A DNA stretch of 64,000 nucleotides, taken from Humulus lupulus. Lineage: Eukaryota > Streptophyta > Magnoliopsida > Rosales > Cannabaceae. The stretch covers positions 210,183,948 through 210,247,947 of the forward strand of contig NC_084796.1 in assembly GCF_963169125.1 (NCBI RefSeq), given 5' to 3'. Below are positions 5,621-51,900 of this stretch, one piece after another; position 1 is the first letter of the stretch, and each line of letters begins with the position of its first letter. Made by a program: the position numbers and the translations under genes. The notes under the pieces are model-generated. The model was not told the DNA's origin and made no database searches. It saw only the letters and a list, made by a program, of their open reading frames with translations.

Positions 5621-6826
5621 ATCTTGTTGTCCCTTTTCTTTTCTTGCTTGAGCTGTGGATATTCTTTCTTCCGATGACCTTTCTGACCATAATTGTAACA
5701 TCCCTTGGTGTCTGCACGACACTCACCAGGATGTTTCTTTTGGCATTTGAAGCACTGCAGGTATTCTACATAACCCGACCTATTCCCTCCATCGTTTGTT
5801 CGTGCTCTTTTATCATTTTCGGACTGCTTATTGTTAGGATGCCTTTTCTTCTGGCCATTATTGTTGCTTTGCTGATGATTGTTGTTGTGGTTCCGACCAT
5901 TCTGAGGTTGATTCTGCTGTTTAGGTTCAGGCTTACTGGCTTCCTTCTTACTAGCATTTGCCTAAAGCCTTTCCACTTCTATAGTCGTTTCTAGAGCATC
6001 GGTGTAAGAAGTGGTTCCAGAGTAGCTAGTTTGACTCCTAGCTCAATCTTTGGTCTGAGTCCTCTAACAAACATGGTGACCCTCAAAAATTCTGTTGGAA
6101 CCAACTCTGGTGCAAACTTGGCTAGTTGGTTGAACTGTCGAGCATACTCTACTACCGATAAGTTCCCTTGCTTCAGACTGGTGAACTCTTCTACCCTCGT
6201 AGCGATGACTGTCGAGTTGTAATACTTCTTGTGAAAGAGCTCCACAAATCTAGTCCATGTCATGGTGGCGACATCATGAGTCTGCTGAACCAAATCCCAC
6301 CAAATTCTAGCATCCTTCTTTAGAAGAGAAGAAATGCAGGATATGCGGTCTGCGTTGCCGAGATTCATATGTGCTAGGATCGGCTCTACATTCCTGAGCC
6401 ATTCTTCTGCTTAGAAGGGGTCAAATGTCCCTTCAAAGTTGGAAGCGTATTGCATATGAAATCGCTCATAGATTGGCTCCATGTACTGAGTTGGGTAGAG
6501 CGCATAGTTCGCCATTGGCCATCCCCAGTAAAGACCTACTTGCTTGTGTGCTTGAGCCATTTGCTAAGACTGTGGTTGCGGTTGAGGCTGAGTTTGAGTT
6601 TGTGGCTGCAGCTGAGCCTGTTGTCATTGTTGCTGCAGCAGTTCTTCCTCTTGTTGCCGTAACCTAACAATTTCAGCAGTGTTGTCAACCGGAGGCTGTG
6701 GTGCACTTCTTTTAGCAGCAGTATTGGCAGCGCGTGTTCCCCTTCTACGAACTGGAGGGCTTCACTAGTCTCATGAGCGACGCTGGAGGCATTAGTGTTT
6801 ATGCATGCAGACCTTCTAAGCGACAT
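5621..6826 (-). pseudogene. TE-A gag, broken
   Basis: Structural polyprotein of the element's virus-like particle. The start is placed at the ATG at 6826 (MSLRRSA), because TE-G and TE-F start at the same place with MSLKRSA and MSLRRSA. The N-terminal part is frameshifted near 6750, compared with the open TE-G gag. The conserved core is open at 6368-5991 and contains LLKKDARIWWDLV and FHKKYY, typical of retrotransposon gag. Two zinc knuckles follow near 5780-5670: CFKCQKKHPGEC is intact, while the second reads CYNYGQKGH, with Tyr replacing the second Cys and the final Cys also lost. Confidence 0.85.
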
Positions 6827-7362
6827 CTTCAGCGGAGTTCTAACAGTCGAGAAAAACATGTTAGAACTTACCCTAATAGGCTCTAAGGCAAAACTTAATC
6901 TAAGCAAACATAACTCAGGCCTAATAATTATGATTTCTTATGAAGAATTATGTAAGTCTTCTTTATAATTAGGGTGTGTTCCTATATTTAGTAAAATAAG
7001 CCATCTTTATTACTTTCTAAGTCTATTTCTAATCATCCTATATGACTTAATTCTTAGGCTCAAAACCCGTCGTTGTTCCAAAGTTAATCATATTGAAGCA
7101 GGGTTGTGATCAGTAAAATTGTTCCCACTACTATGGCCCCCTAAACTCTCAATATAGAACTTGGTTTATTGATTTGTATCCACCCTCACTGAACTTGGTC
7201 ATTATTTATTAAATTTATTATTTATTATGATTGCAAAAAAAAAAAAAAAAATCAAACTCATACATGTCATTCAAAAATAACAATTATATTCATTTGGAAA
7301 AATGTTTTCACTAAGTACAATCATAAATGCAAAATAAATATACTAACATAACTAGGGTGAAT

Positions 7363-7958
7363 CTAAAAATCAGGATCTTCTACATCTGACCCTTCATCTA
7401 ACATATCATCATCTATCTCCTCATAATCATCACTATCTTGAGCCTCAAAATTTCCTTGGAGAAGATTCATAAAGATTCTATGTTTTTGCTCATTTGTGAA
7501 TTGAAATTCCAACTTAGAGGTGAACCTAAGTATGAAAAAATAATATCTCATGGCTACTGGTAAATCATCTTCATCATCTATAGTCTCCCATATTTCTTCT
7601 ATAGTTGAAATTACAGAAGGAAAATCTTTAAAAAGCCTAATTACTAAGACATATTGCTCTGTATCTCTGATCATAATTTGCTTAGTAGTCTGAAGATGAA
7701 CTATCTCCTTGTGGAATAAGATTAATCTCTGAGTGATTCTTTCTAACACTCCTACTGTATTCCTTGGCTCTCTAATCCTTTTCAATGCCTTAATGGCTCC
7801 GATATCCTTATTGGTCAAGGCTCCATCCATTCTTAACTGAAAGCATAACGGCTAAAACGTTAGCTATAAATATAAACATAAGCATAATAAACATAAACAC
7901 TTACATTAGCAATTAGATTCAGAGCTTGTGCGTGTGTATCAAGGAGAACTTCATGCAT
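7363..7958 (-). CDS. Intact spliced small ORF between PBS and gag (pre-gag ORF)
   Basis: Unrecognised protein. Exon 2 (7836-7363, 474 nt) is open; the ATG at 7830 alone gives 155 residues. A first exon is well supported: an ATG at 7958, directly after the primer-binding site, opens 18 codons (7958-7905). These are followed by a GTAAGT donor (7904-7899) and a 68-nt intron ending TTTCAG at 7837, which joins in phase 0 to TTA-AGA-ATG. The predicted product is about 175 residues. It is charged and helical-looking, with KALKRIREP near the start, an EQYVLVIRLFKDFP segment, IWETIDDEDDLP, and an acidic tail (DSDDYEEIDDDMLDEG). There is no zinc knuckle, protease or RT motif. TE-G (26859-27453) and TE-F (37061-37646) carry broken copies at the same position. 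Function unknown. Confidence 0.7.
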
Positions 7959-7965
7959 ATGAATT

Positions 7966-7982
7966 GTTTCTCTAATACCAAC
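7966..7982 (-). other. TE-A primer-binding site
   Basis: On the minus strand TTGGTATTAGAG follows the LTR end GGTTCATTACA after two bases. It matches the 3' end of plant initiator-Met tRNA (TGGTATCAGAGC) with one change. Position and motif agree with the other elements here. Confidence 0.75.
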
Positions 7983-26858: not shown

Positions 26859-27453
26859 CTAAAAATCGATATCTTCTACATTAGATCCTTCATCTAACAT
26901 GTCATCATCTATCTCTTCATAATCATCATTCTCATGAGCCTAAAAAATTCCTTTGGGAAGATTCGTAAAGATTCTATTATTTTGTTCTCCTGTGAATTGA
27001 AATTCCATCTTAGAGGTAAACCTAATTATAAGAAAATAATATCTCATTGGCACTGGTATTTCATCTTCAACATCTATTGTCTCCCGTATTTCTTCCAAAT
27101 CAGCAATTACAAAAAGAAAATCTTTAAAAAGCCTAATCACTAAAATATATTGTTTCGTAGCACTCATCTTTATTTGCTTAGTCATTTGGAGATGAACTAT
27201 TTGATTATGGAATAAAAGTAATCTCTGAGTGATTCTTTCCAATATTCCTACCGTATTTCTTGGTTATCTAATCCTTTTTAAGGCCTTAATGGCTCGGATG
27301 TCGTTATATGATAAAGCTCCATCCATTCTTAACTGAAAACATAAGACTAAAATGTTAGCTAAAACACAGAAACATAATATCTAAAACATAAATACTTACA
27401 TTGGCAGTTGGATTTGGAGCTTGAGCGTGTGTATCAAGGAGAATTTCATGTAA
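26859..27453 (-). pseudogene. TE-G pre-gag small ORF, broken
   Basis: Same plan as the intact TE-A copy. The 18-codon exon 1 is at 27453-27400, with TTA in place of the ATG. The intron is 67 nt (27399-27333) with GTAAGT and TTTTCAG ends, joined in phase 0. Exon 2 (27332-26859) is 474 nt, exactly as long as in TE-A. A GAG codon is now TAA near 27270 and a TAG lies near 26940. Conserved segments include YILVIRLFKDF and a C-terminal LDEGSNVEDIDF. The equal exon lengths show that the reading frame was once maintained. Confidence 0.72.
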
Positions 27454-29478: not shown

Positions 29479-32400
29479 ATTCTTCCCTACTAAAAATACT
29501 TTCGTCCCCGAAATTTACTTACTAAACGATTCTTGATACCGTTCTCGCCTATCTTCCTCCAATTCCCACATTGCCTCCTATTCTATACTATTACTTCATA
29601 AGACCTTGACTATCGGAATATTCTTAGACCGTAATTCCCTTACCCCTTTCTCTAGGATGTGAACTGGTCGTTCCTCATAACGTAGGTCTTTCTGAAGTGC
29701 CAACGTATCGTACTTGAGAACTTGGGATGGGTTTGACACATATCTACGCAACATCGAGATGTGAAACACATTGTGGTTGTCTGCTAGAGCTGGTGGTAGG
29801 GCTAATCTATACACTACGGGTACCACCTTGTCCAATATCTCAAAAGGACCTATGTATCGGGGACTAAGTTTGCCTTTTTTCCCGAACCACGTCACTCCTT
29901 TTATTGGAGATATCCTTAAGAAAACTTGATCTCTGACCTTGATTTGCACATCTCGTCGCTTGGCATCCGCATAACTCTTTTGTTGACTCCGAGCAACGAG
30001 CATATGCTTTCTAATCAGTTCTAGTGTGTCTTGAGCCTCTCTAATAGCTTCAGGTCCAAGAAGTTGTCTTTGTCCTACCTCATCCCAATGTAACGGCGAC
30101 TGACATTTCCTTCCATAAAGTAATTCATAGGGCGCCATACCAATCGTTTTCTGGTAGCTATTATTGTAGGAGAACTCTATAAGTGGCAAATACTTACTCC
30201 ATGATCCTCTAATGTCTAGTACACAAGCCCACAACATATCCTCTAAAATTTGTATGGTACGCTTAGATTGTCCGTCAGTCTGAGGATGAAATGTCGTACT
30301 GAGACTTAGCTTGGTACTCATGGCTTGTTGAGCTTCCCAAAAATCTCGATTTGAACACTGAACCTCTGTTGGATACTATGGTCATAGGGATTCCATGCAG
30401 TTGTACAATTTCTTGAACATAGATGTCTGCATACTATTCTGCATCGTTGTAGTTTTGACAGGTAGGAAGTGAGCTGACTTTGTAAGTCTATCCACCACAA
30501 CTTAAGTTGAGTTGTGTTGCTTACTTGTTTGTGGTAATCCTACCACGATGTCCATGGCTATGTCTTCCAACTTCCATTCTGTAATACTAAGCAGTTGTAA
30601 TAAGCCTGCAACTTGCTGATGTTATTCCTTTACTTGCTGGCATATTAGGCATTTGGACACATATTCTGCTACATCTTTCTTCATTCCCAGCCACAAATAT
30701 AGTGCCTTAAGGTCGTGGGTCATCTTGGTAGACCTCGGGTGAACAGAGTATGGGTTAGTGTGTGCCTTTTCTAATATCTTCATCTTAATCCCTAGGTCAT
30801 TCTGCACGCATACCCAACCTTTATATTTCAAGAACCAATGTCCTAATATAGAGAAATATGTAGTCTTTCCTTCATTGACTTCAGCCATATGCAATAATAG
30901 GGTGTCATCATACCTTTGCCCGATCTGTATATCTTCTAGTAAACTCGGCTGGATGGACAAGTTAGCCAGTTGACCCATGACTATTTCTATCTAGGCATTA
31001 ATCAACTCTTGTTCTAGCAATTTTTCTATTACGGATAATGCTGCCGGATTTTCATAACTTTTCTGACTTAATGCATCGCCTTTCCTAGGTGGTATAGGAT
31101 TTCGCAATCATAGTCCTTTACTAGTTCCAACCACCTGCGTTGCTTCATATTGAGCTCCTTTTGTATAAATCTCACACTGCTCTCCATAACTATAGTTGCG
31201 CCAGATTTTCAATGCGAAGACCATCACCGCCAACTCATGTCATGTGTTGGATAGCGTTGCCCATATTCCTTCAGTTGTCTTGAGGCGTAGGCAATCACCT
31301 TGTCATTTTTCATCAGCACATACCCCAAACCTAGCTTGGACGCATCATAGTATAGTACAAACAAGTAGTTGGGTGTTGGTACGCAAAGTACTGGTGCTGA
31401 ACACAATTTCTCTTTGAGGAATTGGAAGCTTTCTTGACATTTATCCGTCCAGTTGAACTTTTGCTGCTTCTGAGTTAGGTTGGTAAGCAGAGTGGCTATC
31501 TTAGAAAATCCTTCTACAAATCTCCAGTAATAGCCTACTAGCCCGAGAAAACTTCTAACCTTTGACGCATTCTTAGGTCTTGGCCAATCCTTCACAGCCT
31601 CTACCTTAGTTGGGTCTACTATAACTTCGTCCTCGGATACTATGTGGCCGAGGAAGGCTACTTGTGATAGCCAAAATTCACATTTCTTCAACTTGGCATA
31701 AAGTTGGTGCTCCTTTAGTCGCAGCATGGTCAGTCTTAAGTGTTCCTCGTGCTCGACTTCATCCTTAGAGTACACCAATATATCGTTAATGAACACCATG
31801 ATGAATTTGTCCAAGTAATCCTTGGAGACCCTATTCATTAAGTCCATAAATGCAGCTAGATTGTTGGTAAGACCAAAAGACATAAGTAGGAACTTGTAAT
31901 GTCCATATCGAGTCGTAAAAGTTGTCTTTGGTATATCTTATTCCCTTACCTTGAGATGGTGATAACTAGATTGTAGTTCAATCTTTGAAAATACATTCGC
32001 TCCTTGGAGTTGATCAAATAAGTCATTGATTTGGGGTAGCAGGTAATTGTTCTTAATTGTCACCTTGTTAAGCTCACGATAATCTATACACATCCGCATG
32101 CTTCCATCCTTCTTCTTCACAAATAAAACTGGCGCCCCCATGGCGAATGGCTCGGTCTTATGAAACCCATGTCTAAAAGCTCTTGTAATTGCGTTTTCAA
32201 GTCCTTGAGTTCGGTAGGTGCCATCCGGTATGGTGACTTTGAGATAGGGTCGGTTCTCGGTACTAATTCAATTGTGAAGTCAATTTCCCGAGTAGAGGGT
32301 AACCCTGGTAAGTCATCAGGAAATATCTCTGGAAATTCCTTTATAATTCGAACGTCTCCAACCTTTAATGGTGTTTTCTGTGCCAAATCCGTGACGCTTG

Positions 32401-37060: not shown

Positions 37061-37646
37061 CTAAAAATTAGGATCTTCTACATCTAACCCTTCATCTAGC
37101 ATATCATCAGTTATTTCCTCAAAATCATCAATATCATAAGCCTTGAAACTACCACGAGAAATATTCATTAGGATATTATTCTTTTGTTAATTGGTGAATT
37201 GAATATCAATCCTATTGGTAAACCTAAGTATAAGAAAATAATATCTCATGGCTACTGATAAATCATCTTCATCATCTATAGTTTCCCATAATTCATCCAA
37301 TTTTGAAACCACGAAAGGCATATCTCCAAAAAGCCTAATTACTAAGACATATTGATCCATGGCTCTCATCATAATTTGCCTAGTGTTTTGAAGGTGAGCT
37401 ATCTCCTTATAAAATCTAACCAATCTTTGACTGATTCGTTCTAGCACACCTATTGTATCCTTTAGCTCTCTAATCATTTTCAATGCACACAAACAGCTTG
37501 ATAAGTCATTGCTCCATTCATTTTGACTAAAAACATATTAACTAGGACGTTAGTTTCAACATAAACATAATATTCATAACATAAACACTTACATTAGAAA
37601 TCAGATCTGAAGCTTTTGCATGTGTATCAAGGAGAACTTTATGCAT
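37061..37646 (-). pseudogene. TE-F pre-gag small ORF, broken
   Basis: Exon 1 is 37646-37593: ATG and 18 codons, MHKVLLDTHAKASDLISN. It ends in a GTAAGT donor. The intron is 66 nt (37592-37527), ending TTTTTAG. Exon 2 is 37526-37061, ending EDPNF like the TE-A copy. One base is missing just before the ATG at 37521, so exon 1 and exon 2 are out of frame. Another break lies near 37490 and a stop (TTAATTGG on plus) near 37186. Conserved: YVLVIRLFGDMPFV and IDDEDDLSVAMRYYF. Confidence 0.7.
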
Positions 37647-46937: not shown

Positions 46938-46949
46938 TGGTATCAGAGC
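46938..46949 (+). other. TE-J primer-binding site
   Basis: TGGTATCAGAGC is a perfect match to the 3' end of initiator-Met tRNA. Confidence 0.92.
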
Positions 46950-47349
46950 GTGCCAAGGTTTAGGGTTCCTGTAGACTGGTTGGGCATGTACACTCGCCAC
47001 TGAAGACAAGCTCGACTCATGGTTTGGTAACTATTTATGTAGTTATATATTTATACCTATCTACATATGATACCTTGATAAGGCTGGTTCTTGACTACTG
47101 CATCATTAGCAAGAATGTGCTTATTAGTATTGATATTGCTAGAAAAACTCATTATTATTGTTCATTGTGAATTACCAATTGATACGTGTTAAATGCTAAA
47201 TGCTATGATAATGTATCCATTTGTATATCTGTATAATTGTAGAATGTGGGTGATTATATGTTGATGTTGGACCGTGAGGCAGCAAGAGGATTAGTTATCA
47301 CTGCTTAACTGGTCGCATTGGCTATTGCAGCAAGGTTTAAGTTATAAGA
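46950..47349 (+). other. TE-J leader without a pre-gag ORF
   Basis: 400 bases between primer site and gag with no open frame like those of TE-A or TE-I. A T-rich stretch ends in GCTATTGCAG near 47330, a likely splice acceptor just before the gag ATG. Useful as a negative comparison for the small ORF. Confidence 0.6.
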
Positions 47350-48480
47350 ATGATTCCAAGACAGATAGATTCATCAGCTGGCCCAGATGATCAAGGCCTG
47401 AATAATAGTCAGGTTCAAGAGAATGACCAAAATCAGATTCCACGGCCTACTCCTAATAACTGGAAATGGTTGTGTAATGACTTGCAGGTCAGAGTTTTGA
47501 GGCATGAAGAAGAAATCTGCCTCCTAAGACAATAGCAAGTTCCTGCGGGAACGTTTTCCCTGAGGCACCACTTGTATCGGTGCCAACAGTGGAGCAGCTG
47601 CCTGAGGTTGGAAGTAAATGGGAGCCTCTTTATGAAAGGTTCAAGAAACAGCAACCTCCAGTATTTTAGGGTAGTGCAGATCTAGCTAAGGCAGAGTAGT
47701 GGATGAGCATGATTACCACCATCCTTGACTTCATGGGGGTGTCTAGTAATGAGGGAGTGGCTTGTGCCACGTACATGTTTCAGGAGGATGCCCGAATTTG
47801 GTAGGAGGTTATATCCCAGACCAGAATCATCAATGCCCTGAGTCAGGAAGAGTTTCAGACTTTGTTCAAAGAGAAGTATTATAATGATGCCACCAGGGCT
47901 GCAAAAGCTGAGGAGTTTATCAGGTTACTTCAGGGAAGTTTATCAGTAACTGAGTATGCCCTGAAGTTTGATAGATTGGAAAAGTTTTTCATGGAGCTGG
48001 TGCCCACTGATGGGACTAAAAGGGAGAGATTTCTCCAAGGGCTATAGCCTAGATTAGCCTGGGATGTTCATATCACCGCTGTGGCTGGAGTTACTACTTA
48101 TGCACAGGTGGTGGAGAAGGCGCTCACAGCTGAGAGTGTAGAAAAAAAGATCTGGCGAGACAGTGCACCCAGAAAAGAGTTTAGGAGGATAGGTCCTCCA
48201 TTTGTGGGTTCAGGTAGGGGTGGAGGCCCTAGTGATCAAAAGAAGAAGGTTCATGATACCTTCCCAACTCCAGGTCCTGACAGGCGACCACGTGGTATTA
48301 CAATGAGTTGTCAGGGTAGCAGTGAGGCCTGGAAGACTTATCCTGAGTGCCCTAGGTGCAAGAGGCACCATTTGGGAGAGTGTTGGGAAAAGGCCTACTT
48401 CTTATATGGGGCAGTGGGTCATTTCAAGAAATACTGTCCTGAAGCAAGAAAGGAAGAGCCTAGGAAAGCGGACAGCTCGG
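47350..48480 (+). pseudogene. TE-J gag, broken by stops
   Basis: ATG at 47350 (MIPRQIDSSAGPD). The gag core spans about 47630-48060, with QEDARIW, FKEKYYND and YALKFDRLEKF. Stops at 47533, 47669, 47695, 47803 and 48045 are all TAG. Two zinc-knuckle regions are near 48345-48440: CPRCKRHHLGEC is intact, and the second reads YFLYGAVGHFKKYC, with both leading Cys now Tyr. The frame otherwise continues into protease. Confidence 0.88.
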
Positions 48481-51400
48481 CCCCAGCTCGAGTGTTCGCA
48501 TCGACACAAGCAGAAGCTAAGGCTTCACCCTCAGTAGTTACAGGTCAGCTTCTTAGTGCTGGAACCCCTTATTCTGTTTTGATTGATTCTAGCGCTACAC
48601 ATTCTTTTGTTGCTAGTAGAATTATTGATAGACTGTGTAGACTATGTGATTATTATGTTGTGGGGTTTGGAACCTTATTACCCACTGGGGAGTTAGTAGT
48701 ATCTAGGAGATGGGTCAGATCTTTGCCAGTGTCAGTGGAGGGCAGAGAGTTGTTAGTGGATTTGATAAAGTTAGTTATGACTAACTTTGACATGATCTTG
48801 GCTATGGTTTGGTTAGTGAAGTATGGGACAACCATAGATTGTAGAAGGAAGATTGTCACCTTTGAGCCTGAAGGTGAGGATCCTTTTGTGTTTGTTGGAA
48901 CTATGCACGGACCCTGTATACCTATGATTTCTGTTTTGAGGGCTAGAGATCTATTGCATGGAGATTGCATTGGATTCTTAGCCAGTGTGGTTGATACCTC
49001 TCAGGTCATGCCAGTGAAACCAAAAGAGACCAGAATAGTCTGTGAATTTCTGGATGCGTTTCCAGAAGATTTACCAGGGTTGCCACCACACAGAGAGATT
49101 GAATTTGTGATAAAACTGGCACCAGGGATGGAGACAGTGTCTTGAGCACCTTAAAGAATGGCCCTAGCTGAGTTAAAAGAATTGAAAGTACAGTTGCAAT
49201 GGCTGTTGGATTTGGGTTTTATCAGATCTAGTTTCTTACCTTGGGGTGCGCCAGTTCTGTTTGTGAGAAAGAAGGATGGTTCTCTGAGGATGTGTATTGA
49301 TCATAGAGAACTGAATAAGTTTACCATTAAGAACAAGTATCCTCTGCCAAGGATAGATGATATGTTTGATCAGTTGTAAGGTAAAAAGGTATTCTCAAAG
49401 ATAGACCTTTGTTATGGTTATCATCAGTTGAGGGTCAAGGAGGGAGACATACCAAAGACTACTTTTCGCACTAGATATGGGCATTATGAGTTCTTAGTCA
49501 TGTCTTTTGGATTGAATAATTCCTTAGCTTCTTTTATGGATTTGATGAACAGAGTGATCAAGGATTATTTGGATCAGTTTGTGATCGTCTTCATCGATGA
49601 TATCCTTGTTTATTCTCAGTCAGAGTTAGAACATGATAAACATTTGAGATTGGTTCTATAGAGACTGAGGGAGCACAAATTTCTTGCAAAGCTCAAGAAG
49701 TGTGAGTTCTAGTTATCTTAAGTATTTTTCCTTGGGCACAATGTCAGTAAGGAGGGGATTAAAGTAGATCCAGCCAAGATTGAAGCAGTCAAAGATTGGC
49801 CAAGGCCAAAGAATGCTTCAGAGGTGAGAAGTTTCCTTGGTTTGGCAGGTTATTACAGAAGTTTCATGGAAGGTTTCTCTAAGATTTCTACTTCATTGGC
49901 TGAGCTCACATGCAAGAATCAGAAGTTTGCGTGGTCAGACAGGTGTGAGAACAACTTCCATGAACTGAAGTAGAGGTTGATTACAGATCCAATTCTGAGT
50001 CTTCCAACATATCAGAAGAAGTTTTTGATATATTGTGATGCCTCACATCAGGGTTTGGGCTGTGTTTTGATGCAGTCAGGGAAGGTGATTGCTTATGCTT
50101 CACATCAGCTGAAGGAGTATGAACAAAGATATCCCACTCATGACCTAGAGTTGGCGGCTGTGGTCTTTCCTTTAAAGGTATGGAGGCATTACCTTTATGG
50201 GGAGAAGTGTGAGATTTATACTGACTACAAGAGCCTGAAATACTTCTTCACACAGAAAGACCTGAATATGAGACAAAGGTGTTGGATGGAGTTAGTAAAA
50301 GATTATGACTGTGAGTTTTTTTACCATCCAAGAAAGGCCAATGCGGTAGCTGATGCTTTAAGCCAAAAGGGTCCAAGACAAATTTATAGTGCGAGGCTGA
50401 TAACCAGAAAGTTAGTAGAGGATATGACCAGAGCTAGTATAGAGTTGCTGGTAATATTATGCTACAGTCTACACTGTTGGAAATAATCAAGGAGGGTCAG
50501 TTGGGGGATCCACAACTGATCAAGATCGGAGAGGATGTTTTGACTGGAGTATCCAGAGATTATACAGTGTCTAATTTGGGCTTGTTGAGGTACAAGGGTC
50601 GGATATGTGTTCTGTTAGACACTGCATTGAGGCAGGAGATTCTGGATGAATCTCATACTACTCCTTACTCTTTCATCCAGGCACCACGAAGATGTATTAG
50701 GATGTGAGATCATTGTATTGATGGCCCGGGATGAAGAGGGATGTAGTGGAATATGTGGTTAAGTGTTTGACATGTCAACAGGTAAAGGCTGAGCATCAGA
50801 GGCCAGCAGGGTTATTGAAGCCTCTGGATATCCCATAGTGGAAATGGGAAGACAGGACGATGGATTTCGTGGTGGGGTTACCCAGGACTATTGGTCAACA
50901 TGATTTAGTTTGGGTTATTATGGATTGCTACACCAAGTCACCTCACTTCTTATCAGTGAGGACTACATATACAATTGACTAGTATGCAGATCTCTATGTG
51001 AGAGAGATCATGCGTCTCCATGGACCACCGAGGTCGACCGTGTCAGATCGAGACCCCACTTTTACTTCCATGCTCTGGGGAAGTTTACAGAAGGCCATGG
51101 GGACACAGTTGAAGTTCAATACTACTTATCATCCTTAGATAGATGGACAATCTGAGAGGACAATCCAGATATTAGAGGACATGCTGCGAGCATGTGTGCT
51201 GGACTTTAGTGGATCCTGGAGTAAGTATCTACCTTTCATAGAGTTTTCCTACAACAACAGTTATCAGTGGACCATTGGGATGGCACCTTATGAGATGTTG
51301 TTTGGTAGGAAATACAGATCTCTCAGTCATTAGGATGAGATAGGAGAAAGGAGATACTTGGGTCCTGAGGCAGTTCAGAGGACCAGTGAGGCCATTAAGA

Positions 51401-51900
51401 AGATTAGAGCTCGGATGCTTGCTTCTCAAAGTAAACAGAAAAGATATGCAAATCCCAAGCGCAGGACCGTGGAGTTCCAAGTGGGAGACTATGTCTTCCT
51501 TAGAGTCTCGCCATAGAAAGGGGTGAGAATATTTGGGAAGAAGGGCAAGCTGAGCCCTAGATATGTAGGTCCATTTGAGATCCTGGAAAGGATTGGTCAG
51601 GTGGCATACAGGTTGGCCTTACCACTGGCATTGTCAGCCGTGCATAATGTATTTCATGTTTCAGCTCTTCCAAGGTATGTATATGATGTGAGTAATGTCT
51701 TGAGTTATGAATATCTGAAGTTTGAGGCAGATCTCTCCTATGAGGAACAACTAGTCCAGATACTTGACAAAAAGGACAAGGTCCTCAGGAATAAGACGAT
51801 ACCTTTGGTTAATGTTTTATGGAGGAACAACAAGGTTGAGGAAGCGACCTGGGAGCTGGAGTCAGATATACAGAATCAATATCCCGAGCTATTCAGGTAA
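48481..51900 (+). pseudogene. TE-J pol: protease, RT, RNase H, integrase, chromodomain
   Basis: Protease near 48580-48640 reads DSSATHSF where DSGATHSF is expected. RT (49158-49661) has RMCID-REL, a SFGL box and an intact FIDDILVYS. RNase H (49977-50486) has [13 protein letters not shown] and [12 protein letters not shown], where the usual residue in TDH is His. The integrase finger (about 50640-50790) and core (50860-51190) follow, with SDRDPTFTS intact near 51043. The integrase end and chromodomain (51523-51900) are open: [12 protein letters not shown], then [18 protein letters not shown]. Stops are mainly TAG. A frameshift lies near 50465. Confidence 0.9.

Follow-up and report, generated by a model that had tools for sequence, protein, structure and literature searches.

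The window analysed here, a stretch of 64,000 nucleotides (nt) from the genome of hop, Humulus lupulus (contig NC_084796.1, positions 210,183,948 to 210,247,947), contains on its minus strand three related copies, TE-A, TE-F and TE-G, of a chromovirus-like long terminal repeat (LTR) retrotransposon that carries a small additional gene between the primer-binding site (PBS) and gag. In TE-A, a motif scan identified a PBS of the tRNA-iMet type, TGGTATTAGAGA (7969..7980), with 2 mismatches to TGGTATCAGAGC, which we take to be the tRNA-Met-type PBS motif. Shortly downstream lies leader exon 1 (7905..7958), read here as 18 codons from the sequence and the comparison of copies, followed by a putative leader intron of 68 nt (7837..7904), which is delineated by its signals, namely, the 5' splice site GTAAGT (7904-7899), a branch-point-like CTAAC (7863-7859) and the terminal CAG (7839-7837), and by a related copy that lacks exactly the matching 75 nt. 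Exon 2, as delineated in the original prediction, which was made from the sequence of the window alone, spans 474 nt (7363..7836) and is open; within it, selection and homologs point to a pre-gag open reading frame (ORF) of 155 amino acids (aa; 7363..7830, stop included), with the start codon 6 nt past the acceptor. Joined, the exons of TE-A give 175 codons with an acidic tail, so that for this copy, the plan was predicted correctly. Farther downstream are a candidate acceptor-like block ahead of gag, GGTAAGTTCTAAC..GTTAG (6840..6872), similar in several families of copies, and the probable gag start codon (6824..6826), inferred from sequence and alignment.

The same plan is found in TE-F (26859..27453; exon 1, 27453-27400; intron, 27399-27333, 67 nt; exon 2, 27332-26859, 474 nt) and TE-G (37061..37646; exon 1, 37646-37593; intron, 37592-37527, 66 nt; exon 2, 37526-37061, 466 nt, frameshifted). 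The layout shared by the three copies, with gaps of 68, 67 and 66 nt, thus stands as originally described, but the coding capacity does not: in TE-F, TTA replaces the exon-1 ATG of TE-A and ORF codon 21 is a stop, whereas TE-G is out of phase, with the acceptor 5 nt rather than 6 nt upstream of the exon-2 ATG, deletions of 1 nt and 7 nt compared with exon 2 of TE-A, and a stop in its own frame as well. The two second exons of equal length are those of TE-A and TE-F, not of TE-A and TE-G as had been stated. Because the lengths differ among the copies, equal exon length was rejected as proof of selection; the protein-level selection that had been deduced from it is demonstrated for exon 2 by other means. 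In TE-A, Retrotrans_gag, Ty3_capsid, RT_RNaseH and Integrase_H2C2 score above the cut-off and RVT_1 just below it, and gag and pol are presumably Del/Tekay-like. The scans of the integrase C-terminus for chromovirus features pertain to related copies: SH3_Tf2-1 is strong at 29596-30375 of the window and in the genomic copy L097, and Chromo in L097 (E = 8.9e-4, 19.6 bits) is below the cut-off of 25.1.

The pre-gag protein is real. A phmmer search retrieved 27 homologous proteins (E from 3.7e-81 to 1.1e-38), and a profile search brought the total to 50 relatives, which are on short contigs from ENA, with one listed under MGnify as well; in viral and prokaryote contig collections, no relatives were confirmed. 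Where the N-terminus is covered among the 27 homologs read, the protein either begins with M(D/N)GAL, which lies 6 nt inside exon 2, or continues from intron sequence. Pfam DUF7892 was rejected as the family of this protein (E = 3.8e-4, 20.3 bits, below the cut-off of 27); in nine homologs, the match to it is weaker or absent in eight cases and similar, also below the cut-off, in one. The best hit of the pre-gag protein in a PDB sequence search has an E of only 0.53, and two AlphaFold models, with mean predicted local distance difference test (pLDDT) scores of 48 and 45, are too poor for a fold search; judging by the models, the 155-aa protein is probably helical, with an acidic tail.

Purifying selection acts on the 155-aa ORF. 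From a search of the host genome (2.48 Gb), the 39 best-matching other copies, 86–93% identical, were aligned with TE-A and TE-F; 16 of these 41 copies, including one that lacks the terminal stop, are free of stops across the 155 codons. Variants were compared in 40 copies (TE-F excluded), with gapped codons, codons with multiple changes and changes to stop dropped. The singletons in exon 2 look neutral (42 synonymous and 171 nonsynonymous), whereas among the variants common to at least 4 copies, the ratio is 21 to 12 (p = 6.7e-7 compared with singletons); tested likewise, the other two frames of exon 2 give p = 0.46 and 0.62. The ratio of nonsynonymous to synonymous substitution rates (dN/dS), obtained with the Nei-Gojobori method (NG86) for 23 copies chosen as stop-free, leads to the same conclusion that the original prediction had favoured: the medians between families of copies, designated A, G, N and Y (the young family), are 0.11 (A-Y), 0.33 (A-G), 0.21 (A-N), 0.19 (G-Y), 0.33 (N-Y) and 0.30 (G-N), that is, not near 1; the medians within families are 0.40 for A (one pair up to 1.55), 0.07 for Y and 0.56 for G. 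Intact copies are present elsewhere in the genome. In the young family, with 150 copies scored of 9,526 candidates, 148 are stop-free and 132 are equal in score; the copy number of this family is high, and many of its copies are intact and nearly equal. One locus (G000, C7:30537442-30561153) contains four matches to the pre-gag ORF at a 7749-nt spacing and resembles one element repeated in tandem, with shared LTRs.

Plant spliceosomal introns are characterized by GT..AG ends, a 5' splice site, a branch point and a U-rich body, all of which are found in the gap between exons 1 and 2; by its sequence, the gap looks like a spliceosomal intron. A pattern anchored in the two exons recovered 3,789 intron-bearing copies across the genome, and a control pattern, none. 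The donor GTAAGT is present in 40 of the 41 aligned copies (A family and TE-F), with 1 change compared with 10 expected from the base context (p = 5e-4), and in 19 of 20 copies of the Y family. Introns were tabulated for 54 of 83 copies (26/40 A, 1/1 F, 18/20 Y, 8/21 G, 1/1 N) that were picked for the presence of GTAAGT and AG, so that this table tests the branch point, length and composition only. The intron is 55–82 nt long; CTAAY is located 26–28 nt from its 3' end in 51 of the 54 copies; and the family means of AT content are 71–78%, compared with 43–58% for the end of exon 1, the intron being U-rich. The intron-like character of the gap, as originally proposed, is thus borne out by the donor, the branch-point motif and the base composition, along with one precisely intron-less copy.

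This copy, L089/L097, was the one exact match (L089) in a genome scan with the exon junction pattern, and a looser anchor pattern found L089 alone; a further junction-pattern match, at C3:38894066, was not reported by the looser pattern. Compared with its intron-bearing sibling L121, L089/L097 lacks 75 nt that correspond exactly to GTAAGT..CAG, with unambiguous placement and no base common to both flanks at the junction. The LTRs of L089/L097 are identical over 1352 bp and 99.8% identical over a further 440 bp, with one additional difference in the length of a repeat, and TTAGT repeats flank the element on both sides; it is a genuine recent insertion. The gag-pol frames of L089/L097 are interrupted, and therefore, it was probably mobilised with help in trans. 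Two other candidates for intron-less copies, L090 and L094, were rejected because both still contain the intron, with an altered donor.

We consider it probable that the 155-aa pre-gag gene is preceded by a spliceosomal leader intron of about 55–82 nt, with the spliced RNA serving as the message and the unspliced RNA as the genome. The intron would begin about 65 nt past the PBS and finish 5–6 nt upstream of the start codon of the ORF, and two RNA forms would coexist. The unspliced form would be the genome that is copied into DNA, and it must retain the intron, given that the latter is present in thousands of copies. The spliced form would be the message for the accessory protein, which would initiate in exon 2; in all 54 tabulated copies, 2 to 7 upstream ATGs are lost upon splicing. 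Exon 1 would be a leader with a short upstream ORF that is fused in frame mainly in the A family, adding 20 residues. The family accordingly seems, as far as sequence signals can tell, to rely on splicing near its 5' end in a retrovirus-like manner.

In the original prediction, exon 1 was a part of the protein, so that a two-exon gene would encode a 175-aa product. TE-A is open throughout, 13 of the 41 aligned copies, when joined, are open to codon 175 (start codon and acceptor not required), the spliced exon-1 ATG is in frame in 22 of the 26 A-family copies with full signals, and of eight stretches compared, exon 1 has changed the least (0.61 of the expected change). Nevertheless, this model is very unlikely to apply to the family: among the full-signal copies of the other families, the ATG is in frame in none of the 18 Y copies, 1 of the 8 G copies and neither the F nor the N copy, so that the frame is kept mostly in the A family only; in the Y family, the exon-1 ATG lies in another frame, which meets TAA at the junction. 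The frame continuing across the junction that is expected of a two-exon coding gene is not maintained, the few variants in exon 1 show no significant contrast (6 synonymous and 24 nonsynonymous singletons versus 2 and 3 shared; p = 0.57), and the exon 1-exon 2 junction is carried by none of the 27 homologs read. Exon 1 is generally a noncoding leader. The possibility that the gap itself is generally coding was rejected as well, given that a stop-free in-frame upstream ATG is found in none of the 26 full-signal A-family copies before splicing. Alternatively, there might be no splicing, the leader motifs being an intron-like RNA signal (for packaging or dimerisation) and the intron-less copy the result of deletion or template switching. 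This is an unlikely explanation, but several observations weigh against the leader intron, the first three of which fit this alternative directly. The single intron-less copy in the whole scan is a mosaic: its LTR end and exon 1 are of the young-family type, with 99% matches at 39 other places, but its ORF is of another type; therefore, recombination took part in its origin, and template switching is possible. Four other copies with the same anchors have shortened spacers of 31–61. At least six donor-mutant copies (the five at C1:89860839 (= L094), C3:249954952, C8:88143619, C8:199837414 and C9:40419087, and L090; sequences read for L090 and L094) carry GCCAATTAAG, in which TTAAG is common with the acceptor, a conceivable non-splicing route. 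Furthermore, GTAAGT is present in only 10 of 17 anchored G-family copies, the acceptor AG is gone in 7 of the 41 aligned copies, and the fractions of the expected change (0.66 for the branch point, 0.72 for the last six intron bases and 0.93 for AG alone) indicate that the branch point and the acceptor are not clearly constrained. Unspliced, 4 of 8 G copies are open from 42–45 codons upstream of the ORF ATG, that is, from exon 1, and in 8 of 18 Y copies, 3 of 8 G copies and the N copy, an in-frame ATG lies 5 codons upstream, within the end of the intron. As for selection, exon 2 variants found in 2–3 copies look neutral (15 synonymous and 58 nonsynonymous), and a part of the signal may be generic because the noncoding leader, treated as codons in three frames, gives p = 0.04, 0.02 and 0.14; exon 2 is still in excess compared with the pooled shared variants of the leader (p = 0.009). 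What speaks for the leader intron over an unspliced signal is that the U-richness, the steady distance of the branch point and the variable length are intron-like, and that the junction in L089/L097 falls exactly at GT/AG between flanks without a common base; by a hand estimate (4 copies spread across 31 lengths, giving about 0.13 random deletions per spacer length, and a 1 in 29 chance of this placement), about 0.004 random deletions with exactly these ends are expected.

The leader intron might not be the only use of the donor. A block of the TTCTAAC..TGTTAG type lies 12–13 nt upstream of the gag ATG in the TE-A, TE-F and TE-G copies, is present in 6 of 7 aligned copies of the A, Y and G families (the exception is L050) and is alike in the leaders of L056, L063, L069, L084 and L085. 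This block suggests alternative splicing, in which the same donor would also be joined to the acceptor-like block, producing a gag-first message, with one leader for both genes. Such a switch is a doubtful possibility: within the A family, the block shows 0.90 and 0.73 of the expected change, that is, conservation little above the average, and a genome search for a donor-to-gag intron-less copy with A/F/G-type anchors gave 1 match, unrelated by eye. A more elaborate version, which we regard as speculative and rather unlikely, involves a retrovirus-like switch at the single post-PBS donor, whereby a small Rev/CERV-like regulator would act on the intron-retaining genomic RNA (in its export, its packaging or its protection against silencing) and the gag message would come from a second acceptor.

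Retroviruses have their major splice donor downstream of the PBS; the hop family is alike in the position of the donor, but here, the acceptor is only about 70 nt away, before the pre-gag gene. The nearest functional model, by analogy, appears to be CERV, the accessory protein of Cer1 of C. elegans, which is made from a spliced mRNA, with the unspliced RNA as the genome, as proposed here, and, according to the available part of the report, is needed for the export of unspliced genomic RNA (PMC10309623). Unlike the pre-gag ORF, the C-terminal ORF of CERV is in the env position (PMC10309623). In the passages available for Ogre, EVADE, BARE1 and Bagy2, partial splicing of the element RNA likewise yields alternative messages (PMC12786077, PMC7264820, PMC6317226); in Bagy2, splicing serves env-like genes and, in these passages, unlike here, none of the splicing is in the leader before gag. 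A 2005 paper on Diaspora describes introns upstream of gag as unreported in any LTR retroelement (PMC1142308). In a 2025 review, Ogre and EVADE are singled out among plant LTR elements as notable exceptions that contain introns, and spliced gag RNA in BARE1 is mentioned in addition (PMC12786077). The original prediction knew of no spliced gene in this position in Tekay-like chromoviruses. This holds for the intron, inasmuch as no leader intron before a pre-gag gene was found in the available portions of the literature searched, but not for the ORF: additional sense ORFs between the 5' LTR and gag (5'aORFs), conserved in most copies and without a known domain, are already described for Tekay chromoviruses (sunflower Tekay 13-2 and maize, rice and sorghum elements) in the accessible text of PMC11728184, which contains neither 'splic' nor 'intron' terms. 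The pre-gag ORF, a sense ORF between the PBS and gag that is conserved across copies, is of this kind. Compared by description only, the sunflower protein is 402 aa long, proline-rich and largely disordered, in contrast to the 155-aa protein, helical in weak models, with an acidic tail and an intron upstream; in the same text, the sunflower aORF has no aa similarity to the grass Tekay aORFs (PMC11728184). Two questions, namely, by what means plant LTR retrotransposons keep genomic RNA and message apart and what role their extra ORFs play, can be addressed in the hop family: a putative leader intron and a selected accessory gene come together here in a family with many intact, near-equal copies, which makes both questions testable by ordinary RNA sequencing.

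Several further observations pertain to the leader and to the rest of the window. Stretches of the GTAGTGGGAA type are conserved in the noncoding leader and alike across families. In some G-family copies, e.g. L069, L084 and L085, exon 1, the intron and the ORF are open unspliced, with frames of up to 236 aa. The five listed donor mutants apparently have one donor change in common, GTAAGT to TTAAGT, and perhaps represent a subfamily without the splice site. On the plus strand of the window, 46938-51900 is occupied by a second chromovirus-like element with Chromo just above the cut-off and a perfect PBS motif; it has no open frame of at least 120 aa between the PBS and 48048 and seems to be without the extra gene. 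Positions 61-2148, adjoining the end of TE-A, consist of tandem repeats of low complexity, spaced at 9 and 12 nt.
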